DNA from: a bacterium
GTDB lineage: Bacteria; JAMCPX01
Direction: 5' to 3'
Length of the DNA: 5,597 nucleotides
Assembly (NCBI GenBank): GCA_021792615.1
Contig: JAJYUJ010000068.1
Coordinates: forward strand, 1-5,597
Positions 1 through 5,597 of this stretch are shown here, piece by piece. The translations under genes and the position numbers were made by a program. A model generated the notes under the pieces. The model was not told where the DNA came from, ran no database searches, and was given only the letters and a program-made list of their open reading frames with translations. How positions within the stretch are numbered: position 1 is the first letter of the stretch; every line of letters starts with the position of its first letter.

Positions 1-2929
1 CGTCGACCCAGCAGTATCGGGGATCGAGGGACAACCGGCCTTCCTTAAGCTGGAGGCACGTATCATTACCGGTCAGCAATCTCAATCTCTGCAATGTTGT
101 TGAAAAAGCACTGTGAGATTTGTCTCCCTCTGTATCCGGCCAGAGGGCATCGCTGATCATCTCTTCCCTGACATCTATTCCTCCATATGCGACCAATGCC
201 TTGAGCATATTCAGGGGCATTTTTTGGACCTTGCCGGAAAATCCCAATGTTTTATCGTCTTTCGTTAATAAAAAACCGCCGAGAGTATGGATTTTGAATG
301 TCCATGGCCAATTCTCGATATCAATGATATTCAGGGGATCCTGCGCATTACGCCTGTTCGACGCCGGGTTGCCTGGAACAAGTCCTCGTCTTTTAATAAG
401 CATCTGTACGTATGGTACCTCTATCCCGGCTTGAAGCGCCTTTATGCATAATGCGAGCATAATATCGGGCATCCATCGCCAGTGATTTATATAGCCCTGC
501 TCTCTTCCGATCTTCATACCATTGCGTAATTGTTCAATGCCTTCATGTTCATTGCCGCAGGCAAAATCCATCTGTGCCTCAAGCAGATAGCAATAGAACT
601 CCAGTATTACCGATCGCATCTCTTCGGCCGTATGTCTTGCCTGCACCAGGTTTTTACGGACATTATCATAATCCCCGTATGATACCTGGACCTGGGCCAG
701 CCCGAGTCTATTGATAGCTTCGGGAAACGGCGTGCCAGACTGAATCGCTGCTTGCAGTGCCTCTTCGCCATATTTCAGGGACACCGGCAGATTACCCTGC
801 AGATGGTTGAGATAGCTTCGCAGGTAATAATAGTGCGAGATGTCAAGCGTATGGCTGCTGTCCATATGAGTGTACATGCTGTTGAGATATTTCTCTGCTG
901 CGGGCAGAGCTCCGGTTGTCAGTGCATAATATGCTCCCTGGGCAAAAAACATGTGGTCCCACAAATGTACGCCATATTTGTTAGCCATCGCAAGACCCTC
1001 ATCGATAGCGGAAGGTGTATCCGGGGATACGGTAATCCAAAGGTAAATACATCGCATAACCTGACCCAGGATCATCTCCATCGGAGTGATCCCTTCCTGT
1101 TTGTTGTGATTTCTGTCCGGTGCGTCCGGATCTTGCAGAGCATTCAGTTCAGCCGGTTCATGCAAATCAAAAAGCACGTTCATTCTTGCAATGTCGCCAA
1201 TCCATGCGTTGTAAAGGAGGAGGTAGTTACTCAGCATTGCACGCGTACGCACATCAATGCGTTCTCCGTTTTTGGCCTGTACAAGAGCTTCGGCACGCAT
1301 TACCCACGGCGATATATTATTCTGCTGCGGCTTGCGGTAGATCAAGGACAGGAGCATGATGGAGATGAAGTGTGCTTCAATCTGCAGAGAAGAAAAAGGT
1401 ATGCGAGCGAGCACCTCCTGTATGATCTCGATCAAATGATCGAGCGGCATAAAGTTGTTCCATTCTATGCAGTATGTTCTTGCCGCGCCTGCCCATGACA
1501 AAAACAATCCATCCCCGTTGTTTTGGTCCTGTTGTCCCAGAAATAAGTCAAATGCCTTCTCAAGCTTTTTGCGGCTTTCGGTAAGGGAGAACGGCAGAAT
1601 TGCTACTCCATACCAATAGAGCAGCCATGGTGCCGTGTCAATGACCGTGGCGGGCAGCTGCCGCAGCCATTGGAGTACGATTTGATTTCTTCCCTGCATG
1701 ATGAGGGCCTGCGCATTATTGAGAATAATCCGGACAAGGGCATGCCAGTCTTTGCATGCATGGAACAGTTTTGCCGCCTCTTCAATCTCTCCGGACTGCT
1801 CCAGCAGTTCAGCAGCTTTTTTCTGTATTCCTTCTATTTCTTTTTCCGGGAATGATTTGTTTGCCTGTGCAAGGAGAAACTCGCGGAAGAGCGAATGATA
1901 ATGGTAGGCAGATTCAACGGCGGATATTTTTACGGTAAAATAATTGTTAAGATGCAGCCGCGCAAGCAAGTTCTCCGGATGGTCCATTCCGGTAAGTTTT
2001 TCTGCCATGGCAAAGGTTATCTTCGGCAAAAACGCCGTTTTCATCAAGAAGTCCTGTATGGTTTTATCAATCCTGTTAAAAATCTCATCGGCAAAATAGT
2101 TGAAGAATCTTTCCTCGAAGATCTCACTCTTTATAAGGCTGGCGTCTTCCTTCCTGTACTTTTCCATCAGCAAAACGAGACCTGCTGCCCAACCCTGTAC
2201 TTTATCATGGAACTGTTGAGCATCCTGATCGCTCAGATGTTTCAGTCCCCTCTTGCGAAGAAACAGCATGGTTTCATCCATGGAAAATTTCATGTCCGAA
2301 TCTGTCATAAATCCTATCTTCTCCCCGGTGCGAAGATGAAGGAATGCTGCAGGGGGATCGCTTTTGCTTATACAGATAAAGTGTATGCAGTGCTGAACAC
2401 ACCCGGACATCATGGATAATGCGACACTCATGGCCTTATGGAGTATTGAATCGGCGGGTATGTCCTGGTAATTATCGAATACAATAACAAACTTTTTTTG
2501 CTGCTCCAGGCAGTTGTAGAGTTCCTGAAAGAACAGACGTGTAAAGGCCGGGATGTCCAGGAGGTGTTCCGGCGTAAACAAGGGCAATGTTTGAGTGTAC
2601 CTTTTGGGAGCGCTCTTCTGGAATCTGGTTTGGGATCGGGGTTTTGATATAATATCTTTTGCTGCCATACCCAGATAATAAAAAAATGTCGATAACTCAT
2701 TATCCCCTTCATCCAGATGATAGTATATATAGGGTATTTTGCGGGTCTTAAGATAGTGAACAACAAATGTAGTCTTACCGGCCCCCGGCATACCGGATAT
2801 CCAGACAATGGGTTTTTTCAGGAGTTTATTCAATAATCGGAACAATCCCTTTCTATGAATAACGCCGGCCACCTCTGGTTTGCTTATTTTATAGATAGTA
2901 TTCGCTATGTTGTCAGTTTTAGATTTCAT
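1..2929 (-). CDS. MalT/STAND-type ATP-dependent transcriptional regulator with C-terminal SARP/OmpR-type DNA-binding domain (3' end off window)
   Basis: This is a large cytoplasmic signal-integrating regulator; 976 codons are visible and the frame runs off the left edge with no stop. The ATG at 2929-2927 is preceded directly by an in-frame TGA (2932-2930), so no earlier start exists; no clear Shine-Dalgarno is seen. Visible features in order: Walker A GMPGAGKT (residues 46-53); Walker B VIVFDN (148-153, Asp152); the GWAAGL motif (246-251) typical of MalT-like ATPases; a winged-helix segment ending in HSLFREFLL (from His345); about 500 residues of helical, TPR-like sequence; and from about residue 877 a winged helix beginning LGGF (883-886), with ALWPD (Trp930) and the QRLRLL and RLSLDP signatures of SARP/AfsR-type activators. 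A BTAD-type helical domain probably follows beyond the window. In MalT relatives, ATP and an inducer drive oligomerisation and activation. Here the usual LuxR-type helix-turn-helix is replaced by a SARP-like domain. The ligand is unknown. It is divergent from the radical SAM operon, so probably regulates it (inference). Confidence 0.9.
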   Translation of the reverse strand, partial: MKSKTDNIANTIYKISKPEVAGVIHRKGLFRLLNKLLKKPIVWISGMPGAGKTTFVVHYLKTRKIPYIYYHLDEGDNELSTFFYYLGMAAKDIISKPRSQTRFQKSAPKRYTQTLPLFTPEHLLDIPAFTRLFFQELYNCLEQQKKFVIVFDNYQDIPADSILHKAMSVALSMMSGCVQHCIHFICISKSDPPAAFLHLRTGEKIGFMTDSDMKFSMDETMLFLRKRGLKHLSDQDAQQFHDKVQGWAAGLVLLMEKYRKEDASLIKSEIFEERFFNYFADEIFNRIDKTIQDFLMKTAFLPKITFAMAEKLTGMDHPENLLARLHLNNYFTVKISAVESAYHYHSLFREFLLAQANKSFPEKEIEGIQKKAAELLEQSGEIEEAAKLFHACKDWHALVRIILNNAQALIMQGRNQIVLQWLRQLPATVIDTAPWLLYWYGVAILPFSLTESRKKLEKAFDLFLGQQDQNNGDGLFLSWAGAARTYCIEWNNFMPLDHLIEIIQEVLARIPFSSLQIEAHFISIMLLSLIYRKPQQNNISPWVMRAEALVQAKNGERIDVRTRAMLSNYLLLYNAWIGDIARMNVLFDLHEPAELNALQDPDAPDRNHNKQEGITPMEMILGQVMRCIYLWITVSPDTPSAIDEGLAMANKYGVHLWDHMFFAQGAYYALTTGALPAAEKYLNSMYTHMDSSHTLDISHYYYLRSYLNHLQGNLPVSLKYGEEALQAAIQSGTPFPEAINRLGLAQVQVSYGDYDNVRKNLVQARHTAEEMRSVILEFYCYLLEAQMDFACGNEHEGIEQLRNGMKIGREQGYINHWRWMPDIMLALCIKALQAGIEVPYVQMLIKRRGLVPGNPASNRRNAQDPLNIIDIENWPWTFKIHTLGGFLLTKDDKTLGFSGKVQKMPLNMLKALVAYGGIDVREEMISDALWPDTEGDKSHSAFSTTLQRLRLLTGNDTCLQLKEGRLSLDPRYCWVD

Positions 2930-3137: not shown

Positions 3138-3221
3138 ATGGATCACATAAGAAACAAAAACACAGAAGAAAACAAGATGATCGGTACTATCGGGAAAGAA
3201 AGGCAGGAACCAGGCCGGTGA
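3138..3221 (+). CDS. Possible 27-residue leader peptide, translationally coupled to the radical SAM gene
   Basis: An ATG at 3138 opens a 27-codon frame inside the predicted transcript. Its TGA (3219-3221) overlaps the GTG start of the radical SAM gene in a GTGA arrangement, the classic geometry of stop-start coupling. The peptide is charged and hydrophilic (begins MDHIRNKNTEENK), with no membrane segment, no cysteines and no run of one amino acid of the kind seen in attenuation peptides. A purine-rich stretch with GAAGA precedes the ATG, but a proper Shine-Dalgarno is weak. I do not recognise it. It may simply be untranslated leader that happens to be open. Confidence 0.22.
   Translation: MDHIRNKNTEENKMIGTIGKERQEPGR
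3201..3208 (+). promoter_or_regulatory. Ribosome binding site for the GTG-initiated radical SAM gene
   Basis: AGGCAGGA lies with its AGGA core (3205-3208) nine bases before the GTG at 3218. The frame is open upstream only to a TAG at 3131 and has no ATG in that stretch, so this site together with the MKVLLV opening supports GTG as the start. Confidence 0.55.
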
Positions 3222-4573
3222 AGGTCTTACTCGTGGCCACAAACAGACTCACGACCCCGTATCCTGTCTATCCTATAGGGTTGGACTATGTCGCCGGTGC
3301 AATCACCCCTTTGCATACCGTGGACATCATCGATCTTTGCTGTGACGGAAATGAACCGGATACACTCGAAACCAGGATAAAGGAATTTGCACCGGATATT
3401 GTGGGATTGTCCCTGAGAAACGTGGATACCTCTGATTCAATCAATGCACAGAATTTTCTGGATTATTATAAAGACGTCCTGGCGACGGTACGTCGGTCAA
3501 CGCATGCGCCTGTTGTACTCGGCGGGAGTGCCTTCAGCATATTTCCGGAGCAATTCATGCAGGCCTTGGGTGCGGAATACGGCATTGTCGGTGACGGTGA
3601 ACGTCTCGCACAACTCCTTGCTGCCCTGGAAAAAGGAGCTGATGCGGCTTCAGTGTCCGGGGTCATCGTACAAGGTAAAAAGATGAACGGGAATTTCACT
3701 TTGTGGGAAGGTGCCGTTACAAGGGCATTCGATAAACAACGTCCCCATCTGGCACGTTACCTGAAACAAGGGGGCATACTCAATCTTCAGACCAAGCGCG
3801 GGTGCCCGTTCAAGTGTATCTACTGTACCTACCCGCTCATAGACGGCAGTTTTATGCGGTGTTTTGAGCCTGAATCAGTCGGACGGATGGCACGGGAGCT
3901 TCAGGATGCCGGGGCGAAATTTATCTACATTACGGATTCTTCTTTTAATGCGGATGTCGACCACAGCATTGCAGTTGCCGAGGCTTTTGCCCGCAACAAG
4001 GTCGGCATTCCCTGGGGAGGTTTTTTTACGCCCAAGCGCCTGCCTGCGGATTATTTCCGCAGGTTGGCGGACTGCGGCCTGACCCATGTGGAGTTCGGCA
4101 CGGACTCCCTGTGCGATGCAACGCTGGCTTCTTATCATAAGCCGTTCAGGCTTGAACAGGCACTCGAGGCGCACCGCATGGCAGGCGAGGCGGGCTTGTA
4201 TGTTTCGCACTACCTTATCGTTGGCGGCCCCGGGGAGAACGAACAGACACTCCGCGAAACACTGGATAACGCCGAAAAACTCAAACATACGGTACTGTTC
4301 TTTTTTTTCAGGATGCGGATTTACCCGGGTACACTCCTGCATACCATCGCCCTGAATGAGCATAATCCCGAATACAACGATGTCTTCTCGCGCCAGGTGT
4401 TTTATCAGACCGACCCTCTTTGGAATGATACGATGGTGCGTATGGTAAGGGAACGATCACGGGGACGGGCAAACTGGATTACCGGATCCGGCGGGGAAAA
4501 TATGGAGAAGGTTATTTCCCGCATGTACAGCCGCGGATATACAGGGCCGTTATGGGAAAAACTGATCCAGTAG
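3218..4573 (+). CDS. B12-binding-domain radical SAM protein, possibly lipid-biosynthesis type
   Basis: A complete 451-residue class B-like radical SAM enzyme. Residues 1 to about 140 form a Rossmann-like cobalamin-binding domain: MKVLLVAT strand, VVLGGSAFS (99-107) and the GDGE motif (125-128). The radical SAM core, about 185-400, carries C196-x3-C200-x2-C203 for the 4Fe-4S cluster, YITDSSFN (237-244), VEFGTDS (291-297), the GGPGE loop (336-340) and RIYPGT (367-372). Such proteins cleave S-adenosylmethionine to a 5'-deoxyadenosyl radical; many use methylcobalamin to methylate unactivated carbon, others do cyclisations or rearrangements. The canonical DxHxxG cobalamin-ligand motif is absent: the matching place reads DLCCDGN (39-45), so B12 would bind without a lower His ligand. 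From memory, the overall pattern is close to the family named 'lipid biosynthesis B12-binding/radical SAM protein', associated with ladderane-like gene clusters; I could not test this. The start is GTG with a good AGGA site. It heads an operon and overlaps the next gene by 22 bp. Confidence 0.92.
   Translation: MKVLLVATNRLTTPYPVYPIGLDYVAGAITPLHTVDIIDLCCDGNEPDTLETRIKEFAPDIVGLSLRNVDTSDSINAQNFLDYYKDVLATVRRSTHAPVVLGGSAFSIFPEQFMQALGAEYGIVGDGERLAQLLAALEKGADAASVSGVIVQGKKMNGNFTLWEGAVTRAFDKQRPHLARYLKQGGILNLQTKRGCPFKCIYCTYPLIDGSFMRCFEPESVGRMARELQDAGAKFIYITDSSFNADVDHSIAVAEAFARNKVGIPWGGFFTPKRLPADYFRRLADCGLTHVEFGTDSLCDATLASYHKPFRLEQALEAHRMAGEAGLYVSHYLIVGGPGENEQTLRETLDNAEKLKHTVLFFFFRMRIYPGTLLHTIALNEHNPEYNDVFSRQVFYQTDPLWNDTMVRMVRERSRGRANWITGSGGENMEKVISRMYSRGYTGPLWEKLIQ
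4543..4546 (+). promoter_or_regulatory. Ribosome binding site inside the radical SAM gene for the downstream gene
   Basis: AGGG sits five bases before the ATG at 4552, within the last codons of the radical SAM gene. The downstream frame is open back to a TGA at 4426 and ATG 4552 is its first ATG, so this site decides the start and implies translational coupling. Confidence 0.5.
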
Positions 4574-5597
4574 TACTACACAGGGTAACGCTCTTTCCCC
4601 TTTCCATTGCACTTCTCGCAGGCATCGGTGCCGTTCAGATCGCAGTGGTCCTTTTTTTTGTATCACCGGATCTTGCGCTTATCCCGCTGATCCTCTTTGT
4701 CATTCTATGCCTCGTTGCCCCGTTTTTCCCGGGGTCATGGTTTTTCATGCCCGTCATTACCCATGGGAATAAACAAAAAAATGCCGTTGCGCTTACCTTT
4801 GACGACGGCCCGTCTCCGGAAACAACACCTCTCCTTTTGGAGATACTGAAAAAGTACAATGTCCCTGCAACGCATTTTGTGATAGGTGCGAAGGCAAAGG
4901 CGCATCCAATGCTGGTGGACAGCATGCTTTCCCAGGGGCATACCCTGGGCAACCACACCATGAACCATGATGTTTTTATCATGCTGAAGTCTTCCAAGAG
5001 ACTTGGGCAGGAGATTGAACAATGCCAGAAAGTGCTTGAGGCCCACGGCGTGCACCCGCTCATGTTCAGGCCCCCGGTCGGCATTGTGAACCCGAGGCTC
5101 TGGAGAGAGCTCCTTGTCCGGGGAATGTACTGCGTTATTTTCAGTATCAGGGCACGCGATATGGGAAACAGACGGGTAGCGGGCATTGCGTACCGGATCC
5201 TCAAAAAAGTGAGAGACGGGGACATCATCATCCTGCACGATCGCGCACTCAAGACAAATCAGCTGGTCGGTCCGTGGTTGAAAGAAATGGAGCAGGTGAT
5301 CGCCGGCATACAGGCAAAGGGGCTCAGGATCGTTCCGCTTGCCGATCTGATCGGAAAGCCGGTCATGAACACGGTTCAAGACGGGTTTGTGCGCGGACCG
5401 GTTGCTGCGTTCTATGACGGTATAGCAGGTTTTTACGACAAAGAGCAGGACTCAGGACTTATATCCGTTCCGCGCAGGGCAGAGCATGAGGCAGTGATCA
5501 AAAGGCTCCCGTCGTTTGTCCGGCGCCCGGACAGAGTGCTTGAGATTGGGTGCGGAACGGGACTTTACACACTTGAGCTCGCACGCAGGGCAAAAGA
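4552..5597 (+). CDS. Membrane-anchored NodB-type polysaccharide deacetylase fused to a SAM-dependent methyltransferase (3' end off window)
   Basis: 348 codons are visible and the frame continues past the right edge. Residues about 12-37 and 41-59 are two hydrophobic segments joined by a short SPD turn, a likely membrane hairpin. The NodB (carbohydrate esterase 4) domain follows with all motifs: TFDDGP (82-87, catalytic and metal Asp84/Asp85), HTMNH (135-139, metal His pair), FRPP (172-175), RARD (200-203) and ILHD (227-230, His229). Members remove N-acetyl groups from sugars in a metal-dependent reaction; some relatives hydrolyse other amides. After residue 284 a new domain starts with an FYDGIAGFYD segment and reaches motif I of class I methyltransferases, VLEIGCGTG (329-337), before the window ends. 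The two domains are in one frame with no stop between them. With basic residues at the N terminus and an even number of membrane spans, both domains would face the cytoplasm, where S-adenosylmethionine is available (inference). It overlaps the radical SAM gene by 22 bp, suggesting coupled expression. The substrate is unknown; the methyltransferase could act on lipid, sugar or acyl intermediates. Confidence 0.88.
   Translation, partial: MGKTDPVVLHRVTLFPLSIALLAGIGAVQIAVVLFFVSPDLALIPLILFVILCLVAPFFPGSWFFMPVITHGNKQKNAVALTFDDGPSPETTPLLLEILKKYNVPATHFVIGAKAKAHPMLVDSMLSQGHTLGNHTMNHDVFIMLKSSKRLGQEIEQCQKVLEAHGVHPLMFRPPVGIVNPRLWRELLVRGMYCVIFSIRARDMGNRRVAGIAYRILKKVRDGDIIILHDRALKTNQLVGPWLKEMEQVIAGIQAKGLRIVPLADLIGKPVMNTVQDGFVRGPVAAFYDGIAGFYDKEQDSGLISVPRRAEHEAVIKRLPSFVRRPDRVLEIGCGTGLYTLELARRAK

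Follow-up and report, generated by a model that had tools for sequence, protein, structure and literature searches.

The window (5597 bp) is an entire contig (G000:C60) of a 2.54 Mb MAG and ends within a gene in which a NodB-type polysaccharide deacetylase continues into a methyltransferase. The questions raised by this locus are whether the two domains truly form a single protein and, if so, which molecule is tailored by it. The original prediction described a bifunctional enzyme that deacetylates an intermediate at the membrane and then methylates it. The features of the window are the following:

3218..4573, + strand: B12-binding/radical SAM protein TIGR04072 (NCBIfam), overlapping the fusion gene by 22 nt
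4552..5595, + strand: NodB-methyltransferase fusion gene with an ATG start, truncated by the end of the contig after 348 of about 500 codons
4597..4725, + strand: membrane hairpin of two hydrophobic helices (residues about 16-58), from hydropathy and from the helices modelled by AlphaFold2 for the G007 homologue
4765..5361, + strand: CE4/NodB deacetylase domain, residues about 72-270, from Pfam PF01522, motifs and the fold match of a homologue
5395..5595, + strand: start of a class I SAM-dependent methyltransferase domain with FYDGIAGFYD and VLEIGCGTG, the remainder being lost at the contig end

The fusion gene and its domains

The fusion frame (4552-5595, + strand, 348 aa) is open from its ATG and terminates only owing to the contig end. 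FYDGIAGFYD and VLEIGCGTG share the frame of the NodB part, and one polypeptide with a membrane hairpin, a NodB domain and the start of a class I methyltransferase is present as predicted. The methyltransferase is complete in relatives; in the window it is cut after motif I, and its remaining part was identified on no other G000 contig. Hydropathy gives a single hydrophobic block at the N-terminus of the window protein and only an N-terminal block in most homologues. The AlphaFold2 model of the complete G007 homologue (mean pLDDT 86.7, pTM 0.75) contains helices at 19-37 and 43-58, the NodB domain to about residue 270 and the methyltransferase from about 283, so that hairpin, NodB and methyltransferase are all modelled and both folds are confidently predicted.

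The deacetylase matches Pfam Polysacc_deac_1 (PF01522) with 103.9 bits (cut-off 23.1) and carries TFDDGP, HTMNHD, FRPPVG and LHD, that is, four of the five motifs originally claimed. The Pfam match together with intact TFDD, HxxxH, RxP and LH metal/catalytic motifs places it among CE4/NodB-type enzymes, and these motifs are kept in most fused homologues with the exception of G302. A complete homologue reached 106.9 bits with the NodB equivalog TIGR04243 (chitooligosaccharide deacetylase), below its curated cut-off of 240. The best structural match of the NodB domain of the G007 homologue was Bc1960, a peptidoglycan GlcNAc deacetylase (Z 29.1).

The window protein alone gave no Pfam methyltransferase match, its methyltransferase part being too short, while that of a complete relative matched Methyltransf_25 with 71.5 bits. 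Assignment to the class I SAM-dependent methyltransferases is based on the complete homologues, which present a Rossmann-like fold, motif I (ExGxGTG) and the full domain, the window itself holding the first part only. Fold neighbours comprise many class I enzymes, among them DhpI (Z 23.4), phosphoethanolamine methyltransferase (22.7) and NodS (21.6), and mix N-, O- and other methyltransferases at similar Z; the predicted fold does not name the methyl acceptor. Pfam NodS was matched at 30.5 bits against 24, and by 8 of 9 members, with generic methyltransferase models scoring far higher, and neither profile nor fold discriminates a NodS specificity. ApeB was rejected as a relative, its similarity covering only 50 aa (28%).

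Distribution and evolution of the fusion

The phylum of the window comprises nine genomes from a single family, and seven of them match: five contain complete in-frame fusions of 493-502 aa with 65-76% identity to the window part (G002, G005, G006, G007 and G008), and in the window genome and G003 the gene is cut by contig ends. Outside this phylum, open fused frames were identified in L042 and L043 (Spirochaetota), L044 (Holophagaceae), L045 (Myxococcota) and L095 (labelled Proteobacteria). In phylum samples centred on the fused matches, with the seed genomes counted in, the same domain order was found as a full fusion in Spirochaetota (8 of 13 matching genomes, 247 searched), Acidobacteriota (3 of 4, 297 searched), Myxococcota (4 of 11, 195 searched), Desulfobacterota (3 of 29, 345 searched) and the Pseudomonadota-labelled phylum of the L095 MAG (1 of 1, 349 searched). 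A widespread distribution in Pseudomonadota was discarded since the seed genome alone matched among the 349. Plasmid records searched for fused copies gave none covering 80% of the query, mostly ordinary NodB proteins.

Because the in-frame fusion recurs in relatives and in other phyla, a hidden stop or frameshift between the domains, which the original prediction had named as a danger, is excluded, and its other concern, that homologues would consistently be two proteins, was not borne out. The distance from TFDD to ExGxGTG was 244-250 residues in every fused homologue measured, a constancy that makes the fusion more than chance. A second, partial copy of the methyltransferase end (L018, G005:C227 1-270; 65% identity) lies at a contig edge and has an internal TAG; it could represent a broken copy or a variant between strains.

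On a NodB tree of 90 rows six changes are required to explain the fusion label, and well-supported branches force three or more of them, which implies repeated fusion or loss of the methyltransferase. Among the fused rows, separate NodB and methyltransferase trees give the same main groups. To judge from these trees, an old fusion whose methyltransferase was lost later in places would fit, independent gain on more than one occasion being also conceivable. Relatives in Desulfobacterota are mostly NodB proteins lacking the methyltransferase, and methylation would thus be an optional tailoring step.

The gene cluster

The gene directly upstream of the fusion belongs to TIGR04072 (rSAM_ladder_B12; 382.2 bits over residues 2-451, cut-off 360), a family described as 'lipid biosynthesis B12-binding/radical SAM protein'. 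Overlaps of 22 or 4 nt between TIGR04072 and NodB genes are common to Spirochaetota, Myxococcota and Desulfobacterota, with NodB either fused or unfused. In G007, the best-assembled relative, the pair stands among homologues of ApeD, J, L, M, N, Q and R. Its neighbours are an alpha/beta hydrolase, a GT2 enzyme, an MMPL exporter fused to another methyltransferase, an LpxL-type acyltransferase, a second radical SAM protein, FabG, LolA, DUF3261, a ketosynthase (KS) and PlsC. Against the aryl-polyene (APE) genes of E. coli CFT073, GT2 and LpxL correspond to the two halves of ApeJ, MMPL to ApeM, LolA to ApeL, FabG to ApeQ, KS to ApeR and PlsC to ApeD, with DUF3261 (ApeN) matched weakly. With KS, KR, GT/AT, acyltransferase, MMPL exporter, LolA and DUF3261 all present, the G007 cluster is of the APE/flexirubin type, and the coupling of the fusion to TIGR04072 is found within it. 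The association of NodB with TIGR04072, KS, FabG, LolA and GT2 recurs across phyla. This context, missed by the original prediction, is more informative than the fusion itself.

In the window genome only GT2, MMPL-methyltransferase and LpxL were located among the cluster genes, on contig C76; both there and in G006 the radical SAM/fusion pair is apart from them, which counts against a role in this pathway. At the other end of the window (2-2929, - strand) a divergent protein of 976 aa is encoded, its frame being open where the contig ends. It matches an NTPase in its N-terminal part and, weakly, a MalT-like TPR, and its C-terminal part resembles a winged-helix/SARP-type region by eye; it is a candidate operon regulator. 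The MMPL exporter of this family (1033 aa), as in L008 (5104-8205) and L186 (3072-6161), has its own C-terminal class I methyltransferase, and several loci from Desulfobacterota show the MMPL-methyltransferase pairing immediately upstream of NodB.

Separability of the two domains

Four arrangements depart from the common one. In G374 (Spirochaetota) the methyltransferase subfamily is a separate gene of 226 aa beside an ApeD-like gene, in an APE-like cluster that also has NodB (the only CE4 gene of the genome), FabG, GT2, KS and LolA. In G415 the subfamily is fused to a PlsC/ApeD-like acyltransferase (L171 13674-15188, - strand, G415:C185) near a TIGR04072-like radical SAM gene, and the only CE4 gene is on a different contig with KS, LolA, FabG and GT2. 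In G302 (L123 / L175, G302:C2) the fused NodB is degenerate (TFDN, HSYSAS, LRDA), likely a pseudo-deacetylase from these motifs, and the methyltransferase motif is intact; additional CE4 genes exist, one near LolA and MMPL. Finally, in Myxococcota L162 (1033-2499) NodB is fused to an ApeG-like (COG4648) membrane domain with 46% identity to E. coli ApeG over 123 aa (E 4e-31), and the tail after NodB in L166, also from Myxococcota, resembles it. Taken together, these arrangements indicate that NodB and the methyltransferase belong to one pathway, yet are separable.

Proposed function

The best-supported reading is a two-step tailoring of the head group of an APE/flexirubin-like lipid. The cluster resembles those for pigment-like outer-membrane lipids, and the head group of such a lipid is the probable target of the fusion. 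Even chances are given to a bifunctional enzyme that tailors an outer-membrane lipid of type II fatty-acid origin, similar to aryl polyenes or flexirubins, in which the aryl part is putative. The hairpin would anchor both domains on the cytoplasmic face of the membrane, since the methyltransferase depends on cytosolic SAM and between the domains no other membrane segment is seen. The GT2 enzyme would add an N-acetylhexosamine, either to the lipid or to its polyprenyl carrier; the NodB domain would take off the acetyl of this head group, and the methyltransferase would then methylate the same head group, most economically at the freed amine. LpxL/PlsC-type enzymes would acylate the head group, and the MMPL exporter with LolA/DUF3261 proteins would carry the lipid to the outer membrane.

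This reading is favored by the fusion in many lineages with constant spacing, by TIGR04072 directly upstream with its short overlap at many loci of several phyla, by the homology of the cluster to E. coli APE genes, by the separate NodB and methyltransferase of one G374 cluster and the CE4 gene with KS, LolA, FabG and GT2 in G415, by NodB fused to an ApeG-like domain in L162, and by the published deacetylases FlxP, ArcN (with ArcM), Kuste3351 and HexD. Counting against it are the mixed acceptor types of the methyltransferase fold neighbours at similar Z, the lack of this domain in most Desulfobacterota relatives and its junction to an acyltransferase elsewhere.

Within it, transfer of the methyl to the freed amine is plausible by analogy with NodB followed by NodS. 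The stricter version, in which one membrane enzyme de-N-acetylates and then N-methylates the amino sugar of a polyene lipid to give a so far undescribed N-methylated aminoglycolipid, as a one-protein NodB plus NodS, is tentative and less likely than not. Of the mechanism originally proposed, itself reasonable, what holds is that the fusion is genuine, that both of its domains are plausibly active at the membrane and that they belong to one pathway, as in the G374 cluster. Action on the same atom, or an obligatory order of the two reactions, is conjectural, given NodB alone in most Desulfobacterota relatives, the methyltransferase-acyltransferase of G415 and the degenerate NodB of G302.

Two activities of the same pathway that are otherwise unconnected form the strongest alternative, with a smaller though appreciable chance: NodB would yield the amino sugar and the methyltransferase would methylate the aryl/polyene part, the role assigned to ApeB in E. 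coli, both being fused only for membrane placement. Among the tested proteins of the L008 cluster no convincing counterpart of ApeB emerged, the methyltransferase having only the short similarity noted above, and a ring methylase could therefore be wanted. Moreover, the methyltransferase occurs alone beside an ApeD-like gene (G374), joined to one (G415), or beside a degenerate NodB (G302). However, its partner in the fusion is a presumed head-group enzyme, the fusion recurs in several phyla with fixed spacing, and the further methyltransferase on the MMPL exporter could serve as ring methylase. Far less probable is an extracytoplasmic NodB domain acting on peptidoglycan or exopolysaccharide like PgdA/PgaB, with an incidental location in the lipid cluster; the Bc1960 match and the frequent secretion of CE4 enzymes speak for it, but the fused SAM-dependent methyltransferase requires the cytoplasm, most homologues have no further membrane segment between the domains, and the association with TIGR04072, KS, FabG, LolA and GT2 recurs across phyla. 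An artefact joining two neighboring genes, suggested by a short MAG contig that ends within the gene, has a negligible chance, being already refuted by complete in-frame fusions that occur independently in further genomes, genera and phyla.

Comparison with known systems

No NodB-methyltransferase fusion was found in the published literature searched. NodB-type deacetylases in flexirubin, arcuflavin and anammox lipid clusters are already published. The flxP deacetylase belongs to the flexirubin cluster of Chitinophaga pinensis, and the role published for it, export, is only a guess (PMC3992019). FlxP and its Dyadobacter relatives are, like the fusion, CE4 deacetylases accompanied by LolA, glycosyltransferase, acyltransferase, exporter and ketosynthases; unlike the fusion, the Dyadobacter proteins stop after the NodB domain. 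The arcuflavin cluster of Azoarcus sp. BH72 contains the adjacent arcM methyltransferase and arcN polysaccharide deacetylase (PMC3949708), which, likened by enzyme kind, are the same pair, consecutive in an aryl-polyene cluster, but two separate proteins. Kuste3351 (deacetylase) and Kuste2803 (B12-radical SAM) of the putative anammox ladderane cluster (PMC2649909) are, also likened by kind, counterparts of the proteins of the fusion locus in type II fatty-acid clusters, although as separate genes. HexD of Clostridioides difficile acts on a glycolipid amino sugar (PMC10128005); it is likewise a polysaccharide-deacetylase-type enzyme, required for an amino-sugar glycolipid, but has neither methyltransferase nor polyene cluster. 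In P. aeruginosa a glycolipid amino sugar is made by a COG3233 deacetylase (PMC12713373), and in E. coli APE synthesis ApeB is assigned as the aromatic methylase and ApeD/ApeJ as head-group enzymes (PMC8253772). Celluxanthene clusters were discarded as a parallel, the text naming none of the enzymes sought.

The deacetylases of the flexirubin, arcuflavin and anammox lipid clusters have so far no assigned role. Through the fusions to a methyltransferase and, in Myxococcota, to an ApeG-like domain, the deacetylase is connected directly with the lipid pathway, and a head group with an amino sugar, which may be methylated, is predicted; TIGR04072, a little-known B12-radical SAM family, is linked to the same pathway. 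The aryl-polyene lipid of X. doucetiae reportedly contains a galactosamine-phosphate-glycerol part. The rhizobial pair NodB and NodS combines the same two enzyme kinds as the fusion, deacetylation being followed by N-methylation of the freed amine, but they are separate proteins and their substrate is a soluble chitooligosaccharide.
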